From Cognatiluteimonas telluris (GTDB lineage Bacteria > Pseudomonadota > Gammaproteobacteria > Xanthomonadales > Xanthomonadaceae): 44,417 nucleotides of DNA. Below the pieces are notes generated by a model. That model was not told where the DNA came from. It did not search any database and was given only the letters and a program-made list of their open reading frames with translations. Below, piece by piece: positions 11,153 through 15,676 of this stretch (the first letter of the stretch is position 1; each line of letters opens with the position of its first letter). The stretch lies in NCBI RefSeq assembly GCF_011320095.1, contig NZ_JAANOY010000018.1, positions 1 to 44,417 of the forward strand. The letters run 5' to 3'. Position numbers and translations under genes: made by a program.

Positions 11153-11761
11153 ATGGGCGAGGATTCGACCGCGAGCGACATCGTGTTGCCGCTGCCGCCC
11201 AATGCGCCGCGCACCGGCGGTCGCTTCGGGCGCTGGCTCGGACGCAGCGCCCTGCGCCTGGGCGGCTGGCGTATGGTCGGCGCCTTCCCCGACATTCCCA
11301 AGCTGGTACTGGTCGGCGCCCCGCACTCGTCCAATTGGGATGGCATCTGGGGCTTCGCGGCAAAGCTCGCCCTGGGCCTGGACATCAAGATCCTGGGCAA
11401 GCGCGAGCTTTTCTGGTGGCCGCTGGCGCCGGTCCTGAGGTGGCTGGGCGTGATCGCGGTCGACCGCAACGCGGCCAGTGGCGTGGTCGAGCAGCTTGCG
11501 ACGCTGATCGGCAGTTCTGACAAATTCTGGTTCGGATTGGCCCCGGAGGGCACCCGCAAGCCGGTCCGGCAGTGGAAGACCGGGTTCTGGAAGATCGCCC
11601 GGGCGGCCGGAGTCCCGGTCCTGCCGGCCTATTTCCACTATCCCGACAAAGTGATCGGGATCGGCCCCCCTGTTGAGCTTTCGGACGACATGGCCGCCGA
11701 CATGGCTCAACTGCGTATCTGGTATCGGCCCTGGCAGGGTCGGCACCACGGGACGGAGTGA
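11153..11761 (+). CDS. PlsC-like 1-acyl-glycerol-phosphate acyltransferase family protein
   Basis: 202 residues. Acyltransferase motif I is HSSNWD (H58-x4-D63), and motif III is APEGTRK (EGTR at 132-135). A basic amphipathic N-terminus precedes them. The protein probably acylates a lysophospholipid or related acceptor at the inner membrane; the substrate cannot be read from sequence. It begins 9 nt after the arfB stop, so it probably shares its transcript. Its 3' end is followed after 15 nt by a sigma-54 promoter, which separates it from the downstream polysaccharide genes. Confidence 0.85.
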   Translation: MGEDSTASDIVLPLPPNAPRTGGRFGRWLGRSALRLGGWRMVGAFPDIPKLVLVGAPHSSNWDGIWGFAAKLALGLDIKILGKRELFWWPLAPVLRWLGVIAVDRNAASGVVEQLATLIGSSDKFWFGLAPEGTRKPVRQWKTGFWKIARAAGVPVLPAYFHYPDKVIGIGPPVELSDDMAADMAQLRIWYRPWQGRHHGTE

Positions 11762-11776
11762 GTGCTCCCGAGCAAA

Positions 11777-11792
11777 TGGCACGCCAATTGCT
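11777..11792 (+). promoter_or_regulatory. Sigma-54 (RpoN) promoter of the epimerase-glycosyltransferase operon
   Basis: TGGCACG-CCAA-TTGCT matches the -24/-12 consensus at every conserved position, with GG and GC separated by the required 10 nt. The predicted transcription start is about 11803, leaving a leader of about 61 nt before the ATG at 11864. It lies in the only non-coding gap upstream of the operon and points the right way. RpoN promoters need an enhancer-binding ATPase; none is encoded in this window. Confidence 0.82.
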
Positions 11793-11863
11793 TGCGCATG
11801 GTCACGGTTTCATCAATGCTGTGTGAGGATCCGACGGCCGCGCCGCGGGTCGAGGGGAAGGGC

Positions 11864-12892
<1,029 letters not shown>

Positions 12893-14233
12893 CACGATCG
12901 GACTGCTGCGCGGGCCCGACAAGACCGTACCGACTCCCGCGGAAGACTGGCGCAAGGCGATCGTCGACGTCGTCATTCCGGCATTCAAGGAAGAGGACAA
13001 CATCGTCCACTGCCTGGCGTCGCTGGCGCGCCAGACCATGCGCCCGCGCAACGTCATCCTGGTCGAGGACGGGGCGAAGGACCAGACCGTGCCGCGCGCG
13101 CGCGAATACGCCGCGGCCGCCGGGCTCGACCTGACCGTCATCGAACGCGCGGCGTCGATCGGCAAGACGCCGACGATCAAGCGCCAGGCGCGCGAGTTCG
13201 ACTCCGACGTGGAGTTCATCCTCGACGGCGACACCTTTCTGGAGTCGCCGGACTACATCGCCCGCTGCGTGGAAGAGCTCTACCAGGGCGTCGGCATCGC
13301 CAGCGCCTGCGGCACGATCCTGCCGATGCGGCCAACCGATCGCCACGCGCTGGCGCAGACCCCGGAATTCCAGCGCTGGCATGGCGCGCCGACCTACGAC
13401 GACCCGCACGCGCGGCGCGGCGCGTTGCATGCGCTGTGGTGGTGGACCACCAACATCTACCGCGAGTGCCTGTACCTGTTCCTGCAGCGTTTTGTCTACA
13501 AGGGACAGATGGTGTTCTTCGGCAGCATCACCAACCCGGTGGGTTGCGCGGTTGCCTATCGGCGCAAGTACATCGCCGATCTCTTCGACCATTACGAGCC
13601 GCTGTTCGGCGACGACCTGACCAACTCCGAGGACATCTTCATCGGCTTCGCGCTCAACTACGAGGGCTACCGCAACATCCAGCTGCAGGACGTGCTGGCG
13701 CGTTCCGAGGAACCGGAAGTCCAGCGGCTGCCGCGGCAGATCTACCTGTGGTCGTCGTCGTTCCTGCAAAGCTGCTACTACTTCGACGCGCTGCTGCGCA
13801 CGCCATTCAAGACCGTCAAGCGCTGGCGCAAGGCCCGGCGCGACCGCGCCAGCGGCGAGGCGCAGCGGATCGAGGAACTGCGCAAGGTCAAGGAGCAGTA
13901 CCGGCAGCCGTTCGGCAAGGCGTACACGCTCCAATACGGCCGGCCGATCGGCTGGGCAATGTTCCTGGCGGCGCTGGAAAAGGTCGCCTTCCCGACCGCG
14001 CTGGTGATCATGCTGGTCCTGCGCATGTGGGAGGCGCTGGCGGTCACGCTGGTGGCCGAACTGGTGGTGTCGCTGGCGGTGCTGTTCGTGGTCTCGCGCG
14101 GCGCGCGCATCGCCACCGTGCTCAAGGGCATCGTGATCACGCCCCTGCGTTACCTGCTGATCGTGGCCGATACCTTGACGATGCTGCGCTTCGCCAGCGA
14201 CCTGTGGATCACCGGCAACCGGAAGTGGCGCAA

Positions 14234-15676
14234 ATGAGCCTTCGTACCCCGCTCGCCGCGCTGGCGATGGCCGTGCTGGCGACACTGCCGGCGATGGCAC
14301 GCGCGCAGGACGCCTCCAACGGCTACCAGCAGGCGCTGGAAGCGGGCTGGAACGGTCGCTACGGCGACGCCCTGGCGCGCATCGATGCCTATCTGGCGAC
14401 CCATCCCGACGACCGCGCCGCGCAACTGGATCGCGCCCGCTTCCTGGCGTGGCGCGGCGACTATGCCGCCGCCAACACCGCCTTGTCGAAATTCCCCGAC
14501 GGTGATGCCGAGGCCGCCGGCCTGCGCGCGCGCACGCTGGCCTGGGCCGGGAGGCGCGACGCCGCGCTGGCGCTCAATACACCGCTCTACGAGGCAACAC
14601 CCGACGACTACGACCTGGCCTGGACCCAGGCCCTGGCGCTGCACCAGGGCGAATGGCCGCAGCGTGCGCTGCCGGCGCTGGCGATGGTCCAGTCGCTGAA
14701 ACCCGACAGCGCCGATACCCGCTCGCTGCGCGACGCGGTTCGCCTGCCGCTGTTCTCAATGGTGTCGATGCCGTTGTCGATCTACAGCGATTCGGACGAC
14801 ATCGAGATCCGCAGCATCGGCGCCGGCGCCAGCCTGTGGCTGGGCGACCAGTGGCGGCTGCTGGCCGATGGCCTGCGGCGCGCACATTCGGCGCCGGCGA
14901 CGGGACCGTTCGCCCCCCTGGGTGGTGGCAACTCGGTCGATGAAACCCGAGCGGGCGTGGGCCTGCGCTATGCGCCGTCGCCCGAGGTCGCGGTGGAAGG
15001 CTGGCTGGGGCGTTCTCACCTGGACGACGACACGCCGGCCACGGACGATGCGACGATCGGCCGCCTGTCGCTCTCCCAGCGCGTCAACGATTCGGTTTCC
15101 TACACGCTGACCGCCGACCGCGATCGCATCGATGCATCGCCGCGCGCCCTGGCCGTGGTTCGCAACGGACTGACGGCGGACCTGCACTGGACGCCGGGAT
15201 TGCGGGATACGGTTTCAGGCCGCGCCAGCCTGCAGGACTTCGACGACGACAACCGCCGGCAGTCGCTGCTGCTGGACTACCGGCATGCGACCTGGCGCGG
15301 CGACCATGTCATGTTCGACCTCGGCGGCCAGGCCGAATGGCAGCACAACACCAGCAACACCGGCAACGGCTACTACAGCCCGGATCGTTACGTGCGCGTC
15401 GCGCCGCAGGCGTCGGCGTACGTCGGGCTGTCGCCCGATGCCGGGCTGTACCTGTCCGCGGCGCTGGGCGTCCAGCGTGACGAGACCTTCGACAGCTGGA
15501 AGCGCGCCGGCGACGTCAACGCCGAGCTGACGCTGGGCATCTACAGTCCCTGGCAGCTGGTGGCGCGCGTCGGTTACAGCCAGCGCCTGAACCAGTTCGG
15601 CCGCTACGAAGGCCGCACCGGCGGCCTCGAACTGCGCTATCGGTTCTGCGCCTATCGCGCAGGTCGCTGTCCCTGA
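14234..15676 (+). CDS. Outer-membrane TPR/beta-barrel protein, putative polysaccharide exporter (YaiO/PgaA-like layout)
   Basis: 480 residues. The signal peptide ends ARAQDA (about residue 24). Residues 26-170 form TPR-like helix pairs (GYQQALEAGWNGRYGDALARIDAYLATHPDD and following). From about 175 to 471 are alternating beta-strand segments typical of an outer-membrane barrel, with strands ending in aromatic residues. The last strand (LELRYRF) is followed by a short tail with two cysteines, which is unusual for a barrel C-terminus. The TPR-then-barrel order is that of exporters such as PgaA, BcsC and AlgK/AlgE. Its ATG overlaps the glycosyltransferase stop (ATGA), so the two are translationally coupled. 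The export role is inferred. Confidence 0.8.
   Translation: MSLRTPLAALAMAVLATLPAMARAQDASNGYQQALEAGWNGRYGDALARIDAYLATHPDDRAAQLDRARFLAWRGDYAAANTALSKFPDGDAEAAGLRARTLAWAGRRDAALALNTPLYEATPDDYDLAWTQALALHQGEWPQRALPALAMVQSLKPDSADTRSLRDAVRLPLFSMVSMPLSIYSDSDDIEIRSIGAGASLWLGDQWRLLADGLRRAHSAPATGPFAPLGGGNSVDETRAGVGLRYAPSPEVAVEGWLGRSHLDDDTPATDDATIGRLSLSQRVNDSVSYTLTADRDRIDASPRALAVVRNGLTADLHWTPGLRDTVSGRASLQDFDDDNRRQSLLLDYRHATWRGDHVMFDLGGQAEWQHNTSNTGNGYYSPDRYVRVAPQASAYVGLSPDAGLYLSAALGVQRDETFDSWKRAGDVNAELTLGIYSPWQLVARVGYSQRLNQFGRYEGRTGGLELRYRFCAYRAGRCP

Follow-up and report, generated by a model that had tools for sequence, protein, structure and literature searches.

Organization of the polysaccharide locus

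The window, by which we mean the whole 44,417-nucleotide stretch of DNA analyzed here, contains three forward-strand genes that overlap end to start and form one unit. The first gene (11864..12892) encodes an NAD-dependent sugar epimerase/dehydratase of the SDR type (Pfam Epimerase, 2.8e-48, scanned from 11762), for which no NCBIfam model scores over its cut-off among the best 25 of 31 matches. The second (12846..14237) encodes a synthase-like family-2 glycosyltransferase (Glycos_transf_2, 4e-15) whose C-terminal part appears hydrophobic by eye and which weakly matches chondroitin synthase in the PDB (2.9e-6). The third (14234..15676) encodes a PgaA-like outer-membrane export barrel (PgaA_barrel, 3.7e-8, over the cut-off, scanned as the open reading frame 13436-15676); its match to TIGR03939 (3.8e-16) falls below that model's cut-off. 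An acyltransferase gene (11153..11761, + strand; Acyltransferase, 6.8e-12) lies upstream and outside the operon, while a LysR gene on the opposite strand and then a malate synthase gene follow downstream. The acyltransferase neighbor also occurs at the G070, G659, and G453 loci. In the latter two genomes, which lie outside the family, an RF-1-like gene, the acyltransferase, the operon, LysR, and malate synthase are all found together.

These assignments identify a predicted synthase-type surface-polysaccharide operon. It resembles the pgaABC/hms systems for poly-GlcNAc in combining a PgaA-type barrel with a GT2 synthase-like enzyme, but differs in that the epimerase leads the operon and that the three-gene unit contains no PgaB-like gene. 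We do not call it pga because the PgaA and PgaC NCBIfam models match only far below their cut-offs (58.5 against 366.65 bits for PgaA, 40.3 against 422.3 bits for PgaC). The glycosyltransferase itself falls far short of the cut-offs of both the PgaC and the NodC models.

An exact sigma-54 element in the gap before the operon

The acyltransferase and epimerase genes are separated by 102 bases (11762-11863). A mechanically assigned GTG start at 11762 would place the promoter site described below within the coding frame. We read the gap as non-coding because the alignable epimerase protein begins at the ATG at 11864 (MHILVTGGAGFIGSH), which is preceded by GGGGAAGGG, and because the open frame in G006 barely exceeds the match, spanning only 344 amino acids for a 342-residue epimerase alignment.

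Promoters recognized by sigma-54 (RpoN) carry the consensus TGGCAY-N5-TTGCW, in which the GG and GC dinucleotides lie ten bases apart. A pattern scan of both strands locates TGGCACGCCAATTGCT at 11777-11792 on the + strand (TGGCACG-CCAA-TTGCT), with 0 mismatches to TGGCACGNNNNTTGCW; the GG at 11778-11779 and the GC at 11790-11791 have the ten intervening bases of the consensus. This is the only 0-mismatch match on either strand of the window. The element sits 15 bases past the acyltransferase stop codon (11759-11761) and 71 bases ahead of the epimerase ATG. Transcription from sigma-54 promoters usually begins some 12 bases downstream of the -12 GC, which would place the start at ~11803 and define a predicted 5' leader (11803..11863, + strand) that ends in the GGGGAAGGG ribosome-binding site.

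A sequence-only reading of this DNA had proposed an exact RpoN match with GG-N10-GC spacing, directed into the epimerase-glycosyltransferase-barrel operon and unlikely to have arisen by chance. Each of these points holds. Given the base composition of the window (GC 0.709), exact matches are expected 0.008 times in the window and 0.53 times in the genome, where four are observed; for this gap and strand the expectation is 8e-6. Relaxed searches behave differently. At up to three mismatches the window contains 63 matches against 88 expected, which renders such matching uninformative, and at up to one mismatch the genome contains 23 matches against 28 for a reversed-pattern control, so the relaxed motif is no commoner. 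Because these relaxed counts do not exceed control or expectation, the motif search by itself does not carry the claim.

Conservation before orthologous operons

Orthologous operons were collected as a family sample (15 of 395 genomes, chosen for epimerase hits at E <= 1e-100) and an outside-family sample (11 genomes out of 398 sampled across the order, chosen for glycosyltransferase hits at E <= 1e-60). A site was scored as present where -24/-12 elements with GG-N10-GC spacing precede the epimerase start. Of the 26 genomes, 19 have such a site, 70-112 bases ahead of the epimerase start (11/15 within the family and 8/11 outside it), with 15 of the 19 at no more than two mismatches and the other four at three. 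Within the family, the match is exact in G000, differs by one base in G002, G006, G105, G108, and G066, by two in G070, G131, and G019, and by three in G062 and G015. Outside the family, all eight members of genus g98 carry the site (five at one mismatch, one at two, and two at three). The site is absent at the expected place in G079, G080, G202, G453, G620, and G499, the last of which has only a three-mismatch match at -243, and is decayed in G034, where the -12 GC is missing. Conservation upstream of orthologous operons was the test on which the earlier reading had staked itself, and the motif passed it in this sample.

The individual matches vary in weight. In composition shuffles of the 160-bp stretch, 0-27 of 2000 reached the observed match for the nine family sites at no more than two mismatches. 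For the two sites at three mismatches, 174 and 259 of 2000 did so, and the G062 and G015 assignments rest on position because shuffles match so often. An alignment anchored on the sites yields 1.63 bits for the fixed motif columns, 0.37 for the spacer, and 0.24 for the 30 upstream columns, the motif value being partly built in since each site was chosen as the best consensus match. The base directly after the motif, which lies outside the search pattern, is T in 19/19 genomes; these genomes are related, and eight of them belong to one genus (g98). In an unanchored alignment of the g98 promoters (n = 8), the sigma-54 site emerges among the conserved blocks. The gaps around the site otherwise hardly align. 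By inspection, G019 has a different gene upstream yet keeps the site, which argues that the site goes with the operon and not with the neighbor gene.

Paralogous GT2 loci (G010, G022, G026, G092, and a second copy in G079) were excluded from the 26 genomes. Three of these five carry a sigma-54-like site upstream (exact in G079, two mismatches in G010 and G026). The second glycosyltransferase gene of G079 (L180, L160; G079:C14), whose product is 53% identical to that of the window, ends ~530 bases before the epimerase gene and has its exact sigma-54 site 184 bases upstream of its own matched start. Also left out was a contig scan with 80 loci at 34-48% identity, which contained no close orthologues. 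A genus search around G070 found no further operon-bearing genome.

Candidate activators of the promoter

The genome encodes RpoN in one copy (E = 9.2e-61) and four strong sigma-54 activators, each containing receiver, AAA+, and Fis-type HTH domains; two further PF00158 matches are weak (27.3 and 23.0 bits) and fall outside this set of four. The genome thus provides both the sigma factor and the class of activator that a sigma-54 promoter calls for. Together with the retention of the site in 19/26 genomes and the lack of any sigma-70-like site in a promoter scan of 11600-11900, this favors the earlier proposal of sigma-54 rather than housekeeping control.

Activator 1 is NtrC, which scores above the NCBIfam cut-off of TIGR01818 and, by eye, adjoins a sensor kinase. 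Activator 2, which no family model names, we designate PilR from the pilin gene (pilA) and sigma-54 site close downstream. Activator 3 is linked to an ABC operon. Activator 4, the C2 regulator, resides beside small-protein genes with divergent sigma-54 sites, and we set it aside as a candidate for the polysaccharide promoter, no close orthologue being found in the site-bearing G002, G006, G015, and G019, among others. The divergent sigma-54-like sites adjoining a sigma-54 activator gene at L070 (6508, - strand, one mismatch; 6712, + strand, exact) are ~200 bases apart and precede genes for small hydrophilic proteins. Another exact site, at L074:2573 (+ strand), lies 28 bases before the ATG (2617) of a small open frame.

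A FleQ-type activator, one of the possibilities raised by the sequence-only reading, finds no counterpart here, as the Pfam FleQ domain matches none of the four strong activators and all of them carry receiver domains. G002, G019, and G062 contain only three strong activators each, and these correspond by orthology to PilR, NtrC, and the ABC-linked regulator. Provided that orthologous promoters rely on orthologous activators, the activator should therefore be one of these three.

A candidate PilR box (GTCACTTNNTGAC) was derived by eye from the family pilA promoters and then used for scanning. It occurs with no more than two mismatches at -97 to -112 before the pilA sigma-54 site in 6/10 family genomes, some of which are its source. 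Independently of that source, it also precedes one pilin gene in each of the eight g98 genomes at -154 to -157; among the 15 g98 pilin loci examined, eight have the box at this threshold and the other seven show at least three mismatches. Before the polysaccharide promoter, the box is found in 8/8 g98 genomes at -92 to -101 (reached by 0-9 of 300 shuffles each) and in G019 at -114, and G015 has a two-mismatch copy on the opposite strand at -96. It is absent at up to two mismatches before the polysaccharide promoter in 9/11 family genomes, the window included. As a control, it reaches this threshold before the ABC operon in 0/15 genomes. PilR has an orthologue in 19/19 site-bearing genomes and is kept in five of the seven site-less ones (G034, G079, G202, G453, and G620), a co-occurrence with a Fisher p of 0.065 when relatedness is ignored. 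PilR, the type IV pilus regulator, is our best guess for the activator, a tentative choice from sequence comparison that we rank above the ABC-linked regulator in a close call.

The alternative that the promoter is real but answers to the ABC-operon-linked response regulator (L072:8915-10270), with the polysaccharide as part of its regulon, appears unlikely, although this protein tracks the site across genomes better than PilR does (Fisher p of 0.0023 against 0.065). A full-length orthologue with at least 66% identity and no internal stop is present in 19/19 site-bearing genomes. Four of the seven site-less genomes lack the gene or have it split: G034 gives no match, G080 and G499 contain relatives at only 45%, and in G202 the gene is split. 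The p-value is not corrected for phylogeny. The regulator is nevertheless full-length in the site-less G079, G453, and G620. Its gene adjoins an efflux-type ABC operon as well as a sensor kinase, and what is evidently its binding box, TGTCCG-N0..3-CGGACA, lies at -50 to -80 before the sigma-54 site of that operon in 15/15 genomes in which the first gene was found (21 searched). Before the polysaccharide promoter, by contrast, this box is represented only by one- or two-mismatch copies (7/11 family genomes and 1/8 in g98), and the family copies sit inside the acyltransferase gene. At the L072 locus (G000:C35:8000-20000), the ABC-exporter operon is accompanied by a sigma-54 activator and a sensor kinase of its own. 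At L227 (G202:C4), the ABC-linked activator is split over two reading frames; G202 lacks the sigma-54 site and possesses PilR.

Control by NtrC, which would link the polysaccharide to nitrogen limitation, is less probable still. The earlier suggestion of an NtrC-type regulator stands insofar as NtrC is encoded (TIGR01818, over the cut-off) and a sigma-54 site precedes a gene that we take to be glnA, recognized from its first residues. NtrC orthologues are likewise present in 5/5 other genomes examined closely (G002, G019, G062, G535, and the site-less G034). The suggestion falters at the promoter itself: a GCAC-N7-GTGC type site is visible before glnA, but by eye none was seen before the polysaccharide operon.

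It is very unlikely that the motif is a chance occurrence and that the operon is read from the upstream genes or from an unrecognized sigma-70 promoter. Such an origin would fit the relaxed genome-wide counts, which do not exceed the control, the seven of 26 relatives without the site, and the short gap to the upstream gene, where no terminator was found at 11600-11900 and read-through is possible. Against it stand the conservation of position in 19/26 genomes whose flanks hardly align and the want of a sigma-70-like site in the same interval. We reject as barely credible the idea that AGCAAaTGGCacGCCAaTTGCT (11771-11792) is a dyad operator for a dimeric repressor and only appears sigma-54-like: this near-palindrome overlaps the promoter and pairs at 9/11 positions, but 30 of the 44,396 22-mers in the window pair equally well, and what relatives retain is the -24/-12 bases rather than the dyad, which is not kept in G002 and G006.

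A Clp-type box in related promoters

In the unanchored g98 alignment (320 bases, eight genomes), the clearest blocks are GTC..TTCCTGAC near -100, the sigma-54 site, AAATGTGAT-N5-TCACATT, and the ribosome-binding site. The block near -100 resembles the pilA (PilR) box. The AAATGTGAT-N5-TCACATT block contains an exact TGTGA-N6-TCACA box, of the type bound by Clp/CRP proteins, in 8/8 g98 promoters. This box begins 35 bases downstream of the -24 element's first base and hence covers ~+10 to +25 of the predicted transcript. Within the family, a Clp-type box with no more than two mismatches is found in 7/11 genomes, six of which have it at +22/+23 relative to the -24 T, about one turn upstream of the g98 position and across the predicted start. 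The shuffled means for this box are 0.6 and 0.9 genomes.

The window has no TGTGA-N6-TCACA match at up to two mismatches between -250 and +86 of the -24 T, and of the g98-type layout it keeps only the sigma-54 part. The link to c-di-GMP anticipated by the earlier reading is plausible only by way of the Clp-type box, which is perfect in one other genus and was not found at two mismatches in the window. The gap to the acyltransferase gene spans ~400 bases in G659, with the upstream box inside it, and 102 bases in the window.

A separate leader dyad, GTCAC-N5-GTGAC, occurs exactly near the predicted start in G070 (L061), where it overlaps a Clp-like box, and in G062 (L063), and with one mismatch in G105; it is not general.

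Discussion

The sequence 11777-11792 very probably constitutes a working sigma-54 (RpoN) promoter of the three-gene surface-polysaccharide operon, its transcription being predicted from the DNA. RNA polymerase-sigma54 would bind this element as a closed complex, and transcription would start at ~11803 only after an AAA+ enhancer-binding protein has remodeled that complex, a role that PilR may fill. The polysaccharide is thus probably made only when a dedicated activator, perhaps PilR, calls for it.

Francke et al. 2011 (PMC3162934) describe a theme that crosses phyla, in which sigma-54 governs exopolysaccharide and other surface functions. Because control of exopolysaccharide genes by sigma-54 is already described there, the promoter class is ordinary. 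Here a single locus is traced through its orthologues, and the likeness is to the general theme. In Xanthomonas campestris, deletion of rpoN2 lowers extracellular polysaccharide and biofilm, and the available portion of that report describes direct RpoN2 binding at flagellar genes and no direct polysaccharide promoter (PMC7280030). RpoN2/PilR also governs pili, twitching, and biofilm in Xanthomonas oryzae, as a review describes (PMC8657755). The PilR-RpoN control of pilA is matched, in this genome and its relatives, by a similar box upstream of pilA together with a sigma-54 site; it differs in that the target considered here is a polysaccharide operon and that the window lacks the box.

The xag operon of Xanthomonas campestris, which also serves a surface polysaccharide, carries a Clp box: Clp represses xagA through the site TGTGA-N6-TCGAT, and c-di-GMP prevents Clp binding (PMC3528676, available text). 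In our case the perfect box is present in relatives and not in the window. RpoN occurs 0 times in the main text of that article as available, and the likeness is one of description and not of sequence, our comparison with Xanthomonas resting on gene content. Inhibition of the sigma-54 promoter Pu by CRP (PMC3900584, in the portion accessible) similarly has a CRP-family protein damping a sigma-54 promoter, as we propose for the relatives, although promoter, host, and regulator differ. We found no description of the present promoter in the accessible portions of the open-access literature on RpoN, Clp, PilR, and polysaccharide.

In the relatives, a Clp-like protein bound to the Clp-type box, which lies at the start or a little downstream of it, would keep the promoter shut until released by c-di-GMP, a proposal to which we give about an even chance. 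The same block and release at the window's own promoter is improbable. The outer modules may have disappeared as the gap to the acyltransferase gene became shorter. The ancestral arrangement could conceivably have been a three-module switch, in which PilR bound near -100 fires sigma-54 transcription while a c-di-GMP-sensing Clp at the start holds it back until c-di-GMP rises; the window's lineage would then have lost the outer modules as the upstream gene moved in, with the sigma-54 core left behind. We regard this fuller history as doubtful.

The class of promoter is already known, and its exact regulator is, from the sequences compared, a candidate. What the locus provides is a concrete, conserved candidate RpoN target, one that would make surface polysaccharide conditional on an activator. 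If PilR is that activator, polysaccharide production would be tied to piliation. If both the PilR and the Clp modules are real, one short promoter would integrate pilus signaling and c-di-GMP, and would offer a direct test case for the joint programming of pili and matrix in surface attachment.
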